Assembly (NCBI GenBank): GCA_001783185.1
Contig: MFQY01000002.1
Span: 1 to 35,356 of the forward strand
From: Candidatus Magasanikbacteria bacterium RIFOXYC2_FULL_40_16
GTDB lineage: Bacteria > Patescibacteriota > Patescibacteriia > Magasanikbacterales > UBA922
Length of the DNA stretch: 35,356 bases
Direction of reading: 5' to 3'
Positions 5,839-30,300 of this stretch are shown piece after piece. Each line of letters opens with the position of its first letter. Position 1 is the first letter of the stretch. The notes beneath the pieces were generated by a model, which saw only the letters and a program-made list of their open reading frames with translations, was not told where the DNA came from and did no database searches. The translations under genes were made by a program, and so were the position numbers.

Positions 5839-6012
5839 TTACGACGCTTTCACGCCTGCTCCTTGTCCAGCTACAATTTTTGTGGCCTGCTCCTCGTTAA
5901 AGCCTGCCTTCATCAGGGCGTCGTATGACTTTTTCATAAGGCGCGCCCCAATCTCAAAGAGCTCATCATTTTGTTCCATTTCCCGCATCATTTCGATCAG
6001 TTGTTCAAGCAT
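5839..6012 (-). CDS. Small hypothetical protein, 57 aa (SD class), not in the supplied ORF track
   Basis: Minus strand MLEQLIEMMREMEQNDELFEIGARLMKKSYDALMKAGFNEEQATKIVAGQGAGVKAS*; preceded by AAGGAGGAGTATCATG. Confidence 0.75.
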   Translation of the reverse strand: MLEQLIEMMREMEQNDELFEIGARLMKKSYDALMKAGFNEEQATKIVAGQGAGVKAS

Positions 6013-8058: not shown

Positions 8059-8310
8059 TTAGTAGTGTGCCCAGCAATCATTTTCCTCATCGTAGACCCA
8101 ACCAAGTTTTGCCATCCGAACCACTTCTTCTTCGGGCATCTGTATGACTGTTTTGTCAAAATTGCTTGCCCAAATGATATCGTGACCAAATTGTGGCATA
8201 ATATTTTCCTCGTATTTTGCGAGGATTTGTAGTCCGTGCATTACAACATTCTTTTCGGAAAAATCGAAATCATTTTCCTCAATAAGATCCTTGGCTCTTT
8301 CGATGTCCAT
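8059..8310 (-). CDS. Small hypothetical protein (SD class)
   Basis: MDIERAKDLIEENDFDFSEK...; SD AAGGAGGAGCTTATG. Confidence 0.7.
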   Translation of the reverse strand: MDIERAKDLIEENDFDFSEKNVVMHGLQILAKYEENIMPQFGHDIIWASNFDKTVIQMPEEEVVRMAKLGWVYDEENDCWAHY

Positions 8311-9888: not shown

Positions 9889-10089
9889 CTAGGCGATGTT
9901 TTTTCTGACAATCTCGAGATTGGAAGCGAGGATTTCTTCCTTAACATCATCATCGATATCGTCCCATGCGTTGTCTAGTCCACGGCGACCAAACAGATCA
10001 TCGAGAACGGCGAACAGGATTTTTTTGGCAGGGTCGGTCGGTTTTGCCTCGTAGTATTTCTCAAATTCCTCAAGTAGCGATTCTTCCAT
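9889..10089 (-). CDS. Small hypothetical acidic protein (SD class)
   Basis: MEESLLEEFEKYYEAKPTDPAKK...; SD AAAAGGAGAACAGACATG; TTGACA-N17-TATGCT upstream. Confidence 0.7.
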   Translation of the reverse strand: MEESLLEEFEKYYEAKPTDPAKKILFAVLDDLFGRRGLDNAWDDIDDDVKEEILASNLEIVRKNIA

Positions 10090-13946: not shown

Positions 13947-14078
13947 TTAATGATTATGTTACGAAAAAACAGCATCTAACTCTCGCAAGGTAAAAACTGC
14001 CCTTATTGACATTTCGCCTAAAAACGGCTATGGTAAAGATAATCGGGCAAATTATTTTGAGCAATACAGGAGGGGAAA

Positions 14079-14366
14079 ATGAAAAAAACAGAGATGAGAA
14101 CCGATACAACCTATCTGCTGTGTCCGGAAAGACGATGTGTTCTGTTTTGGGACACAAACTCGCCAATTCCGTGCGAAAGCCGGTGTCCTTTCCAGGATAA
14201 ACTGGTAAAAATGATAGTCTGCACCGGTTGCCATGAACTGATTGAGTTGCCGGGCAACCACAACCACCTTTGCCGGGTTGACCATGATTGTCTAGATGGC
14301 GCTCGCATCTCAAATTTCCAGAGAATTGGTGGAAAATATGTTATAACATACGAAAAACCGAGATAA
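14079..14366 (+). CDS. Small Cys/His-rich hypothetical protein (SD class), possible zinc-binding
   Basis: SD CAGGAGGGGAAAATG; TTGACA-N17-TATGGT; CPERRC, CTGCHELIELPGNHNHLC. Confidence 0.65.
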   Translation: MKKTEMRTDTTYLLCPERRCVLFWDTNSPIPCESRCPFQDKLVKMIVCTGCHELIELPGNHNHLCRVDHDCLDGARISNFQRIGGKYVITYEKPR

Positions 14367-14443: not shown

Positions 14444-14704
14444 TTATCCGCAAGAATGACGGGCATTCACACGGACACAGTTGAGGACGCGCACCGCCTC
14501 TGTCTCATGGAAGCTGTCCCTCAGCTCCCGACAGAAGCTGGCCTTGAGGTAGACACAGCCTTCACGTAGGAAAGTGGGGGAATTCTGGAGATCCCCGATA
14601 TACTCGCTCACGGGAACCGTTACAGTTTCCCCCATATCAACGGTAAAGGTACACCAGCCATCCTCCGCCAAAACCAACACTTCTTTCTTCGTCTTTTCGG
14701 CCAT
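14444..14704 (-). CDS. Small hypothetical protein (SD class)
   Basis: MAEKTKKEVLVLAEDGWCTFTVDMGETVTVPVSEYIGDL...; SD AAGGAAGGATAGATATG; TTGACA-N17-TATATT. Confidence 0.7.
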   Translation of the reverse strand: MAEKTKKEVLVLAEDGWCTFTVDMGETVTVPVSEYIGDLQNSPTFLREGCVYLKASFCRELRDSFHETEAVRVLNCVRVNARHSCG

Positions 14705-20214: not shown

Positions 20215-21183
20215 TCAAACACAAACTTTAGCGGCAAAAATATCCAAAAGTGTTTCTTCGTCTCCTTGACTGGTCTTAATCTGAATATCCAGCTCAAGCA
20301 ACCCGGCGTACACCTCTTTTAATTTCTCCATATTATAATGCCGGATCAACGGCAAAGTCTTTTTTACCACAAACGGATGCAGGTTTAATTTCTTAGCCAA
20401 ATCATTGCTGTTGGTATCGCTCTGGCGTTCAAACAAATCCCTGATTTCCAACATTATTCTGAACTGCCGTAAAATCATGGAAAAAATAAACTGCACATCT
20501 TCGCCTATTTTATATTGTTCCTGAATCATTTTAAAAACCTGTTTTTCTCTTTTGCCAACTATCGCGTCAACCAAATTAAAAATACTGTCATCGGCTCTTT
20601 CGTCCAAAAAAAGCTGAGCATCGCCCGCGGTTATTTCCTTGCCCTCGCAATAAGAAATCAATTGATTAATTAAAGAATTCAAATACCAAGTATCGCCCTT
20701 GCTCTCGGTTGCTAAATATAAAATGGCGTTATTATCAATTTTACCGCCCCCGGCTTCAACCTCTTCTTTTATCCAATTATTCAAATGCACCCCTTTCAGC
20801 TCGTCAAATTGAACGCAGAACTTGCCTTTTTTAAACAAAGCCAATAAATCCTTGCCCATTTTTGTTTTAAAAGCGTCAATGCCTTCCCAAAAAATTACCA
20901 CGCTTGCTTCCGGCAGGCTGTTCTCTTTTATTTTTTTCATTATTTCATTTTGCAAACCTTCATTTTTACTGACAAGAAGATTTTTAAGAACAGTCATTCG
21001 TTTTTCCGCCAAAAACGGCTGGGCCATTATCTGTCCCATAACATCAACCCTTTCGTTATCTTGGCAATCCAAAACAACCGTATTTAATTTCTGCGGGTCT
21101 CTTTCTTTGATAAATCTTTTGATATTGTCAGACAGATATTTCCGGCTCCTGAACGTGTCTTTTCCGTAGATAAAAATATACAT
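20215..21183 (-). CDS. holA: DNA polymerase III subunit delta
   Basis: MYIFIYGKDTFRSRKYLSDNIKRFIKE..., VVIFWEGIDAFKTK, IFNLVDAIVGKREKQ, LHPFVVKKTLPL. Confidence 0.9.
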   Translation of the reverse strand: MYIFIYGKDTFRSRKYLSDNIKRFIKERDPQKLNTVVLDCQDNERVDVMGQIMAQPFLAEKRMTVLKNLLVSKNEGLQNEIMKKIKENSLPEASVVIFWEGIDAFKTKMGKDLLALFKKGKFCVQFDELKGVHLNNWIKEEVEAGGGKIDNNAILYLATESKGDTWYLNSLINQLISYCEGKEITAGDAQLFLDERADDSIFNLVDAIVGKREKQVFKMIQEQYKIGEDVQFIFSMILRQFRIMLEIRDLFERQSDTNSNDLAKKLNLHPFVVKKTLPLIRHYNMEKLKEVYAGLLELDIQIKTSQGDEETLLDIFAAKVCV

Positions 21184-21321: not shown

Positions 21322-21350
21322 TTGACAAACCTTTTTGTTTATGATACTAT
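21322..21350 (+). promoter_or_regulatory. Promoter of candidate sRNA/leader
   Basis: TTGACA-N17-TACTAT in ggggttgacaaacctttttgtttatgatactatat. Confidence 0.55.
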
Positions 21351-21357
21351 ATCCCTC

Positions 21358-21479
21358 GTCTTAAGACCCTCCGCTACTAGTGTGGAGGAAGGAAAGCCAG
21401 GGTTTGAGAGCCCCTCCTCTCTCGATCCCACCAACGCTTTCCGGGCGGCTGTGCACATGCGCAGTCGCCCATTTTTTTT
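21358..21479 (+). ncRNA. Candidate structured sRNA or transcribed leader with C-rich apical loop and intrinsic terminator
   Basis: Hairpin CCTCC/GGAGG (21368-21388); GGAAAGC...GCTTTCC (21391-21442) with GAGAG-CCCCTCCT-CTCTC apical hairpin; terminator gggcggctg...cagtcgcccattttttt (21443-21479). Confidence 0.55.
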
Positions 21480-21530
21480 ACTTGTGCTATGATAAACACA
21501 GTTTTTAAACCACTTGGAGGATAACTTTTC

Positions 21531-21812
21531 ATGAGGAAAATTCGTCTTTCTTCCAGCCGGCCATCTTTCTCAATGCGAGTGAACTCAAACCTGCCTTCGG
21601 GCAAACCAAAAAAGAAGGATTCTATCGCAAAAAAGAAAGACAGAGCGAGAAGAAAAAGAATGCGGGAACGGGCAAAGGCCGAAAAAAAGAGGGCGCAAGC
21701 CAATGCCAGTCCCCTAACTGAAGAGGAAAAGAGGGAAAGGGCGCGAGCCAACCTAAAACCGCGCCTGAAGAAGGCCGACTACCAAAGCAGGGCCTTCGGG
21801 TTTTGCTACTAG
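21531..21812 (+). CDS. Small highly basic hypothetical protein (SD class)
   Basis: MRKIRLSSSRPSFSMRVNSNLPSGKPKKKDSIAKKKDRARRKRMRERAKAEKKRAQ...; SD TTGGAGGAT; terminator at 21829. Confidence 0.65.
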   Translation: MRKIRLSSSRPSFSMRVNSNLPSGKPKKKDSIAKKKDRARRKRMRERAKAEKKRAQANASPLTEEEKRERARANLKPRLKKADYQSRAFGFCY

Positions 21813-21828: not shown

Positions 21829-21857
21829 AAAGAGGGTGCCTCGGCATCCTCTTTTTT
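21829..21857 (+). terminator. Intrinsic terminator
   Basis: agagggtgcctcggcatcctctttttta. Confidence 0.7.
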
Positions 21858-24543
21858 ATTTGATTTCACCCCAGCTTTTATTTATCCCCACTTCAACCGC
21901 AATCGGCACATTTAATTTTGCCACCGACTCCATTGCCTTTTTTACCAATTCAGCCACTTCTTCTTCTAAACCTTTTTTAACTTCCAGGACAATTTCATCG
22001 TGGACTTGAAGTATCATTTTTATATCGTCTTTTTTCTTGTGTTTTTCCAGTTTTTCGTCCACATCAATCATCGCCATTTTCATTAAATCGGCCGCCGTGC
22101 CTTGAATCGGCATATTTATCGCCATTCTCTCGCCGGCATTGCGCAACTGAAAATTTTCCGACATCAATTCCGGAATATAACGGCGACGGCCAAATAAAGT
22201 TTCCACATAGCCTTCTTCTTTGGCAAACTTTAGTGTTTGGTCAATATATTTTTTTACGCCAGAAAACTGTTTAAAATATTCTTCAATAAATTTCTTCGCC
22301 TGCCATTGCGGTATGCCGGCGCGCCAAGACAAACCATACGCGCCCATACCGTAAAGCACGCCAAAATTGACTTCCTTAGCCGCGTAACGCATTTCGCGAG
22401 TCACATCTTTAAGTTTCACATTGTTTATTATGGCCGCGGTCGCTTTGTGGACGTCCTCGCCTTTCTCAAAAATCTCAATTAATTTTTTATCCTTTGCCAG
22501 AGAAGCCACTGTCCGCAATTCAATCTGCGAATAATCGGCCGACACCAAAATATTGCCCTTGTCAGCCACAAACGCTTTGCGGATTTCGCGCCCCATCTCC
22601 GTTCTGATAGGAATATTCTGTAAATTCGGGTCCGAACTGGAGAGCCGTCCCGTCGTCGTGACCGCCTGATTAAAAGTGGTATGTATTCGTCCGGTAGTTT
22701 TATTTACCAGCCCGGGCAAGACATCAATATATGTATTGCGTAATTTTTCTATCTCGCGAAACTCCTCAATCAAAGCAATAATCGGATGCGCGCCTCTTAA
22801 TTTTTCCAATTCGGCGGCGGCGGTGGAATAACCGGTTTTCCCTTTTTTAATCCCTTCAGCCGGCAAATCCATTTTCTCAAACAACACTTCCCTAAGCTGG
22901 GTGGACGAAGCGACATTAAAATCCTCTCCCGCTTCCTTGTGAATAGCGGAAACCAGTTTTTTCAGACGACTGCCTGCTTCTTTGGAAAGCGCCCCCAACC
23001 TTTCGTCGTCCACGGCCACTCCGTTCAATTCCATCTTCGCCAAAACCCTAATCAATCTCATTTCCACTTTTTCAAATAAACCCAAATCTTCCACCTCTTT
23101 AAGGCCAACTGTAAACTTTTTTTCCAACAAGTCAACATACCCAAGCTGGTCGGCGAGAATCTGCGGGTCAATCCCGAATAAACTGACTTGCGTGTCAACC
23201 TCGGGCAATTCTTTATTTAATTCCCTGATTACCAACCCTCTCAACCCGTGCGAACGGGTGCTTGAATTAATCAGATAAGAAGCAATCATTATGTCAAATA
23301 ATTTATTTTCCACTTCAATACCCTTCAACAGTAAAACCTTTATAATTTGTTTCAAATTGTGTCCGACAAGCGTCTTGTTTTTATCGCCAAAAATCTTGCC
23401 CAGCTCTTTTTTATTTTTCTCGTCTATTTTTTTCCAGTCAACATAATATGAATTGCCCCCGAACAAAAACACCAGCCCCAAAAACTCATCTTTCATCACA
23501 TCCTGGCCGGCCAACGATTCCGCGCAAATAATTTTTCCTTCCTTCTCCGCTTTTTCCAAAAAATCCGCGAAATTATTTTTATCAATCAACCTGACTTTTT
23601 TGCCAGCGCTATTTTTTTCCGCTTTTTCCGGGAAACTGACGGCTTTGCCAAACCCCGGCACTCGCTTTAGCAAAGAAAAAAATTCCAATTTGTGAAACAG
23701 GTCTTTTATTTTCGCTTCGTCAAAAGGATTGACAGCGCAATCTTTCAAACTGAATTTCAAATCCTTGATATCGGTACAAATTGTGGCCAGCTCTCGGCTC
23801 ATCAGCGCGTCTTTTTCCCCTGATTTTACTTTTTCAATCACCCCCGGCTTAAATTCGCTCAACAAAACAGAATTCTTCTTTTTAATATCTTTATATATTT
23901 CTTCAACCCCGCCGATTTTGGCTATCAACAATTTGGCGGTCTTCTCGCCGATGCCTTTTATCCCCGGGATATTATCCGAACTGTCCCCGCGCAATGATTT
24001 ATAATCCACCACTCTTTCCGGACCAAAACCGTATTTTTCTTTAACGCCTTTGGCATCAAACAAAACCGTATCCGTAATTCCTTTTCGCAACTGAAAAACT
24101 TTGACTTTATCATCAACCAACTGGAGCATATCCATATCGCCGGTCACGATAATTGTCTCCAAATCTTCTTTTTCCAGTTTTTTAACAACCGTACCGATGA
24201 CATCATCCGCCTCGTAGCCCTTCTGTGTATAGATTGGGATATCAAACGCTTCCACAACTTTATAGCAAATTGGGATTTGGTCATACAAATCCTGATCCGC
24301 TTTCACGCGTTTACCTTTATAGTCGGCATAAACTTTGTCGCGGAAAGTCCCTCCGCCCACATCAAAACTGACTGTAAGATAATCCGGCTTTAAATCATTG
24401 ATTACTTTAAGTAACATTGAAGTAAAACCATACACCGCGTTCACCATACTACCGTCCTTGGCAGTCATTGGGGGTAGGGCATAATACGCCCGGTGGACAA
24501 TGGCATTGCCATCAATGATTATAAATCGTTTTTTGTTGCTCAT
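21856..24543 (-). CDS. polA: DNA polymerase I
   Basis: 5'-3' exonuclease domain (IIDGNAIVHRAYYALPP), polymerase motifs DPNLQNIPIRTEMGREIRKAFV, SADYSQIELR, QVHDEIVLEV; start at MSNKKRFI. Confidence 0.95.
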   Translation of the reverse strand: MSNKKRFIIIDGNAIVHRAYYALPPMTAKDGSMVNAVYGFTSMLLKVINDLKPDYLTVSFDVGGGTFRDKVYADYKGKRVKADQDLYDQIPICYKVVEAFDIPIYTQKGYEADDVIGTVVKKLEKEDLETIIVTGDMDMLQLVDDKVKVFQLRKGITDTVLFDAKGVKEKYGFGPERVVDYKSLRGDSSDNIPGIKGIGEKTAKLLIAKIGGVEEIYKDIKKKNSVLLSEFKPGVIEKVKSGEKDALMSRELATICTDIKDLKFSLKDCAVNPFDEAKIKDLFHKLEFFSLLKRVPGFGKAVSFPEKAEKNSAGKKVRLIDKNNFADFLEKAEKEGKIICAESLAGQDVMKDEFLGLVFLFGGNSYYVDWKKIDEKNKKELGKIFGDKNKTLVGHNLKQIIKVLLLKGIEVENKLFDIMIASYLINSSTRSHGLRGLVIRELNKELPEVDTQVSLFGIDPQILADQLGYVDLLEKKFTVGLKEVEDLGLFEKVEMRLIRVLAKMELNGVAVDDERLGALSKEAGSRLKKLVSAIHKEAGEDFNVASSTQLREVLFEKMDLPAEGIKKGKTGYSTAAAELEKLRGAHPIIALIEEFREIEKLRNTYIDVLPGLVNKTTGRIHTTFNQAVTTTGRLSSSDPNLQNIPIRTEMGREIRKAFVADKGNILVSADYSQIELRTVASLAKDKKLIEIFEKGEDVHKATAAIINNVKLKDVTREMRYAAKEVNFGVLYGMGAYGLSWRAGIPQWQAKKFIEEYFKQFSGVKKYIDQTLKFAKEEGYVETLFGRRRYIPELMSENFQLRNAGERMAINMPIQGTAADLMKMAMIDVDEKLEKHKKKDDIKMILQVHDEIVLEVKKGLEEEVAELVKKAMESVAKLNVPIAVEVGINKSWGEIK

Positions 24544-24622
24544 ATTGATATTATATACTTTACATCTTATCACACTAAGGGGTTGAAAAAAAGATGTAAT
24601 TATGATATTATCTTCCTAACAT

Positions 24623-24803: not shown

Positions 24804-25109
24804 ATGGTTACAATTTATTGGGAAAAAGTTATCAGACGCTTTTTTCCGGAAGCGCAAAATCTCTCCGAAGATTGGAACGCTAAAACTGTTTCCTTTGATA
24901 TCCTCCCCACCGTGGAAAACATCAATCTTAATATTGATTACAAAACCATGGAAAAACTCAAGGTCTCTTTCGGCCCAAAAATCGGCTACCGATTTGAGAT
25001 AAGATCGGCTGGAGAACTCGGTAGCAGTATGGGCACCAAAACAAAAACAACCGGCGCAATCCTAAAAGTAATAATATTGGATGTCAAATTCCCCGCAATG
25101 CCTGAATAG
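24804..25109 (+). CDS. Small hypothetical protein (SD class)
   Basis: SD AAGGAAGGTCGCCATG; MVTIYWEKVIRRFFPEAQNLSEDWNAKTV. Confidence 0.65.
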   Translation: MVTIYWEKVIRRFFPEAQNLSEDWNAKTVSFDILPTVENINLNIDYKTMEKLKVSFGPKIGYRFEIRSAGELGSSMGTKTKTTGAILKVIILDVKFPAMPE

Positions 25110-29904: not shown

Positions 29905-30300
29905 ATGAGTACCCCGTTCCTCACCCACGAAAAAGTCCATGGTATTTACCGCGCCTGTTTGTCAAACGGTTTTGATGACACAAAATCGTGTAAGACAGTT
30001 GAGTTGAATAAAAAAAGAGTGGCGATGTCGGAGTTCCGGCTTCGCATCAATACCCCCATCATCAGGGATATGCTCCTCCAACTGCCTGAGTCGTTTCTGG
30101 AAACCATAGACGAAAAAGGTGCCCCAATCAGTAAAGCGACGATAGACAAAAATGGTCGCCTCTGGACAATCCTTTTTTCCTATGTGGAAGAACTCTGTAT
30201 GCTCGGCTTGGGAATCGGTATGGTCAAAATCGTTCCGGCGGAAACAGGAAACCCCCGCCAGATCAATATTGTTATCAACCAACAACACGGCCGTTGCTAA
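29905..30300 (+). CDS. Hypothetical protein (SD class)
   Basis: MSTPFLTHEKVHGIYRACLSNGFDDTKSCK...; TGGAG upstream of ATG. Confidence 0.65.
   Translation: MSTPFLTHEKVHGIYRACLSNGFDDTKSCKTVELNKKRVAMSEFRLRINTPIIRDMLLQLPESFLETIDEKGAPISKATIDKNGRLWTILFSYVEELCMLGLGIGMVKIVPAETGNPRQINIVINQQHGRC

Follow-up and report, generated by a model that had tools for sequence, protein, structure and literature searches.

The small RNA (sRNA) sX13 of the Xanthomonadaceae is 115 nt long, and its gene is located downstream of polA and is followed by a hypothetical ORF (PMC3771888). Its phylogenetic range is narrow, its stem-loops carry C-rich apical loops (4C/5C, UCCCCCU), and it acts independently of Hfq (PMC3771888). 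According to the same authors, Spot 42 and alpha-r7 are also located at polA, and alpha-r7 has C-rich loops; they ask whether sRNAs are present at the polA locus of other bacteria too (PMC3771888). In the Rhizobiales, SmelA075 and SmelA099 present CCUCCUCCC in hairpin loops as an anti-Shine-Dalgarno (anti-SD) sequence, and the loops are kept while the stems vary (PMC3927594). In the case of PmaR, the C-rich loop is the seed, and the targets are mostly outside the ribosome binding site (PMC6234868). The C-rich loop of GsrN is also the seed; the target sites are G-rich, and katG is activated (PMC5869019).

The window, which means the whole stretch of 35,356 nucleotides that was analysed, belongs to an ultra-small Magasanikbacteria species with a genome of 0.97 Mb in 65 contigs. 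The gap between holA and polA is 672 bp, and two plus-strand units are located inside. The upstream neighbour holA (20215–21183, minus strand) encodes DNA polymerase III delta (Pfam delta subunit). The downstream neighbour polA (21856–24573, minus strand) is convergent and encodes DNA polymerase I (Pfam DNA_pol_A). The unit at 21322–21479 is on the strand opposite to both flanking genes, and its elements, all on the plus strand, are arranged in the order promoter P1, small 5' hairpin, hairpin 1, hairpin 2 and terminator. P1 (21322–21350) is a near-consensus promoter, TTGACA-N17-TACTAT, identified by its sequence and its counterpart in the sister species described below. The -35 element TTGACA is at 21322–21327, the -10 element TACTAT is at 21345–21350, and a TG is present one base 5' of the -10 element. 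The sRNA is predicted to be transcribed from 21357 to 21479 (about 122 nt), with the start presumed to be 7 nt past the -10 element; the prediction is based on the z-score of the fold and on a syntenic, structurally similar unit in the sister species.

According to the folding, hairpin 1 (21368–21388) has 7 bp and the loop UACUAGU, and hairpin 2 (21391–21442) consists of an outer 7-bp stem, a GGG/CCC segment and an inner 7-bp stem. The apical loop of hairpin 2, assigned from sequence and fold, is the 8-nt CCCCUCCU at 21411–21418. Six of its eight positions are C, and it is the likely seed. The intrinsic terminator (21443–21479) is folded as a 12-bp stem with the loop ACAU (21443–21470), followed by A and U8 up to 21479. 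The original prediction had described this promoter, the terminator and two hairpins between them, the larger of which shows the 8-nt loop, and all of these features were confirmed. A listed frame across the unit (21322–21492) begins within the promoter and passes through the terminator, and no ORF was assigned. The unit thus has what a stand-alone sRNA gene shows, namely its own promoter, an intrinsic terminator and no ORF.

The region 21353–21480 (128 nt) gave a minimum free energy (MFE) of -61.2 kcal/mol with z = -6.9, and none of 200 shuffled sequences was equally stable. The MFE structure accounts for 62% of the ensemble. As a terminator alone yields a good z-score, the terminator was left out of the fold test; the z-score is then -4.0, and that of hairpin 2 alone is -3.7. 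CCTCC is present in 1 of 310 hairpin loops of the window, compared with 0–2 in shuffled sequences. Therefore, the loop sequence by itself is unremarkable.

The sister species, Candidatus Magasanikbacteria RIFCSPHIGHO2_01_FULL_33_34 (contig MFPS01000006.1), was the sole genome of the same genus compared, and its HolA is 72% identical. The holA–polA interval of the sister shows the same series of promoter, hairpin, C-loop hairpin, terminator and small basic ORF. The sister unit (L021:1291–1406, minus strand), recognized by synteny and structure, has its promoter at the same place (TTGACA-N17-TATCAT, likewise with TG). A hairpin occupies the position of hairpin 1, but its stem and loop differ. 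The loop of hairpin 2 is UCCCCCC, with C at six of seven positions, and a terminator of 11 bp and U8 is located at the equivalent position. The sister RNA, folded independently of ours, shows the same architecture, with z = -4.0 without the terminator. A blastn-type search gave no sequence link between the units of the two species. With the single-sequence covariance model R1, a score of 27.1 bits (E ~2e-5 in 39 kb) was obtained for the sister unit.

The covariation was evaluated using an alignment of the two sequences fitted to the structure, from which the unalignable hairpin 1 was left out. In this alignment, standard pairs make up 98.6% of the cells, and both partners have changed in 10 pairs. 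In the control, in which the pairing partners were slid by 1–3 columns, 39–44% were paired and 0–1 changed pairs were observed. In the GGG/CCC segment and inner stem of hairpin 2, six of the ten pairs have two-sided changes in the sister, and all ten are still paired. As only two species carry the unit, the covariation comes from one sequence pair. Conserved structure in relatives, proposed as a check along with the original prediction, is therefore observed in one sister species, where the fold is kept with compensatory changes and the sequence is almost wholly different. The promoter, the C-rich loop and the terminator are kept while the remaining sequence drifts. The structure is retained with a drifting sequence, and thus the pattern is as under selection on an RNA.

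These data also bear on the explanation that the promoter, hairpins and terminator have no RNA function and are the remnant of an inserted cassette. The unit occurs in one genus only in the data compared, and its primary sequence is poorly kept, as would be seen with such a remnant. However, in spite of two-sided changes at 10 pairs the stems are still paired, and the drift has spared the promoter, the C-rich loop and the terminator, so that a cassette remnant is quite improbable. As the sister has the same order and structure, we regard the unit as very likely a genuine, apparently non-coding RNA gene that evolves rapidly. The anatomy, the predicted stability, the synteny, the structural conservation and, in two species, the C-rich loop are established. 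We are confident that the RNA gene is real, new and lineage-restricted.

A DNA search against 145 relatives gave no homologue, and the short matches were due to chance or to terminator pieces. In 14 other relatives with polA beside holA, the unit is absent at this place; the gap there is short, or it contains another ORF or other sequence. A model search of 145 genomes gave no further credible copy; as its strict filters missed even the sister unit, absence elsewhere is unproven. One R1 match, in genome G061, was the end of an ORF and its terminator, and it was rejected as a false positive. Neither HolA nor the loop pattern was found in viral contigs, nor was the unit found in phage records. 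Apart from the sister, which was already known, the contig scan gave only a contig filed under Firestonebacteria and a distant locus. The Firestonebacteria contig (L052, MFGS01000168.1) encodes a HolA 48% identical to ours, and it is perhaps mis-binned. In the polA–holA place of another relative (genome G026, L034:477–1500, minus strand), a long and GC-richer leader (GCGTCCCTGCG...) precedes an ORF. The leader has no Rfam match at the gathering level, and the ORF has a secretion-like start (MKRLLLLLLAMALAVAVAAP).

No Rfam family matched our unit at the gathering level, in agreement with the earlier view that the RNA is unrecognised. The best sub-threshold match was suhB/mmgR (RF00519), with 20.4 bits (cut-off 41), and this family was not matched in the sister unit. 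Both RNAs have a UCCUCC-type stretch and, after it, a terminator hairpin, whereas the low score and the non-standard pairs in the first stem separate our unit from suhB/mmgR.

A divergent housekeeping RNA, SRP RNA or 6S RNA, was also considered. Using the Rfam SRP (including large SRP) and 6S models, none was detected in this genome or in the sister (G000 and G001). The bacterial small SRP RNA (RF00169) was detected in none of 68 genomes (G000, G001 and 66 relatives of the same family and order), with the controls detected; a hidden one could be anywhere. In the units of both species, however, the SRP and 6S models had no match up to E = 10, which answers the comparison with these models suggested at the outset. 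By inspection, it has no conserved apical tetraloop, SRP helix 8 or 6S-type central bubble. None of the 14 relatives has the unit here, and even within the genus the sequence has not been conserved. Because SRP and 6S RNAs were undetected elsewhere in both genomes too, the argument is taken from the absence of these motifs in the unit, and a housekeeping RNA is very improbable. In these genomes, the SRP and 6S RNAs may be either very divergent or lost.

The nearest known parallels to the RNA are sX13, Spot 42 and alpha-r7, the anti-SD RNAs of the Rhizobiales, PmaR and GsrN. The RNA resembles sX13 in its similar length, the polA neighbour, the nearby small ORF, the C-rich apical loop and the narrow range. 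Unlike sX13, it has one C-rich loop instead of three, it is encoded on the other strand than polA and separated from it by the small ORF, and no sequence relation was found. As in the case of Spot 42 and alpha-r7, of which the latter has three stem-loops with C-rich apical motifs, the RNA gene adjoins polA, and this is observed in both species. In contrast, Spot 42 requires Hfq, it belongs to a different phylum, and our unit does not match it in Rfam. Families of the sX13, Spot 42 and alpha-r7 type gave no Rfam match to E = 10 in either species. Because of the opposite strand, the single C-rich loop, the lack of a model link and the relatives, most of which are without the RNA, no homology to the polA-locus sRNAs is claimed. 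The polA location may be a coincidence.

With SmelA075 and SmelA099, the RNA shares a hairpin loop that could serve as an anti-SD, in this species only. Those RNAs have 3–4 hairpins and several copies per genome, whereas one hairpin and one copy are present here. The anti-SD loop sequence is replaced by UCCCCCC in the sister, which places the RNA outside that family. As in PmaR and GsrN, the C-rich loop is predicted to be the seed, whereas no sequence relation to them was found. The C-rich apical loop of the class that includes RNAIII, sX13, GsrN and PmaR is present in both species. In a non-exhaustive word search of the open literature, no description of a trans-acting sRNA from the candidate phyla radiation was found; the kind is known from other bacteria, and in this group the search found no report. 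The structural support from two species provides a concrete RNA to seek in metatranscriptomes, and it adds a case to the question of whether C-rich-loop sRNAs are located at the polA locus of other bacteria (PMC3771888).

The other unit in the gap is a small basic ORF of 93 aa with a pI of 11.5 (21531–21812, plus strand, from the ORF list). Its promoter P2 (21485–21493, plus strand), read from the sequence as an extended -10 element TGCTATGAT with no clear -35 element, is located directly after the terminator U-tract, and the equivalent in the sister is TTGTGATATACTAAA. The SD sequence TTGGAGGA of the ORF (21514–21521, plus strand) is identical in the sister, where the ORF in the same place encodes 75 aa with a pI of 12.0. 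The 21531 ORF has no Pfam match, its protein gave no BLASTP alignment with the sister protein, and no relatives were found in the genome contig search.

The unit could be a cis-acting leader or attenuator of this ORF, whose expression would then depend on terminator read-through or on the C-loop binding to the SD. The order RNA, terminator and ORF is kept in both species together with the identical SD, and the loop pairs with the 21531 SD over 5 bp (-9.7 kcal/mol). However, the corresponding loop–SD duplex in the sister is reduced to -5.7 kcal/mol. In both species, an extended -10 promoter of the ORF itself is located past the terminator. Furthermore, the terminator is near-perfect, no anti-terminator is visible, and a single structure dominates the ensemble, as described above (62%). 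With a conserved promoter belonging to the ORF itself and a loop–SD match that the sister has not retained, cis control is less likely, and the attenuation of 21531 put forward in the original prediction is disfavoured; we consider it unlikely.

The neighbouring basic protein might instead be a chaperone or partner of the RNA, and the two genes would then form a ribonucleoprotein unit. An RNA gene is located beside a small ORF of pI 11.5–12.0 in both species. However, the two proteins do not align, the 21531 ORF is without relatives in the contig search, and many small orphans of the window are independent units. Such a ribonucleoprotein unit is improbable. In the sister, a GGGGGA just past the stop codon of the basic ORF (L021:991–1034, minus strand) pairs with the loop of its own sRNA (-12.8 kcal/mol).

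In this genome, GGATCACCTCCTTT is the end of the 16S tail. Therefore, SDs can work in this genome, and the loop mimics the anti-SD. Among the start regions of the window, eight small genes have an SD (5839–6012, 8059–8310, 9889–10089, 14079–14366, 14444–14704, 21531–21812, 24804–25109 and, weaker, 29905–30300), compared with about 27 without one. The genes of this SD set are orphans for the most part. As had been claimed, the exact complement of the loop, AGGAGGGG, is the SD of the 14079 gene (14068–14075). The duplex of the loop with this leader is a full 8-bp match of -16.6 kcal/mol; of the 35 start regions compared, it leads the next by 6 kcal/mol. The claimed partial complementarity to other SDs was found as duplexes over shorter stretches, with -10.4 kcal/mol for 5839–6012, -10.4 kcal/mol for 8059–8310 and the above value for 21531. 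With the exception of 14079, the 16S tail scores similarly to the loop on those SD genes; any CCUCC loop pairs with any SD. Genome-wide, AGGAGGGG is located before ATG at 5 sites, compared with 2 in the reversed-pattern control, and 2 of the 5 resemble SD genes (14079 and C11:9269); the excess is weak, and no conserved target was found. The enrichment of G5A before ATG is alike in both genomes, including the one with the other loop, and is thus uninformative.

The sister loop UCCCCCC is C-rich but a poor anti-SD, with only -5.7 kcal/mol against its own downstream SD. Therefore, the specific anti-SD role is supported in this species only; the anti-SD loop of the original prediction holds here, whereas its exact sequence is not conserved. 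The earlier proposal that the RNA specifically regulates the orphan class as an anti-SD is doubtful. The conserved property is an open C-rich loop rather than CCUCC. Such C-richness agrees with the broader group of C-rich-loop sRNAs; on this basis, pairing in trans with G-rich leaders is preferred, and we give a trans-acting C-rich-loop regulator of this kind an even chance.

In the mechanism that we propose, a non-coding RNA of about 122 nt would have a strong promoter and a terminator of its own. Hairpin 2 would keep the C-rich apical loop open as the seed, and the loop would pair in trans with G-rich stretches of mRNA leaders, here including strong SD sites. The best candidate target is the AGGAGGGG site of the orphan 14079–14366, where the pairing would block ribosome entry. 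We infer the transcription, the trans action, the SD blocking and the target; SD blocking is the likely outcome in this species. A broader idea, to which we give little weight, is that in a genome where most genes have no SD the RNA silences, as an anti-SD, the SD-bearing minority of small orphans. Its place downstream of polA would then mean that the pattern of Spot 42, alpha-r7 and sX13 also holds in the candidate phyla radiation, and that this locus has housed C-rich-loop sRNAs repeatedly or since very early times. The 14079–14366 gene and the gene at C11:9269 (L056 of G000) both encode short, Cys-rich, zinc-ribbon-like orphans, and they have the identical leader AGGAGGGGAAAATG.
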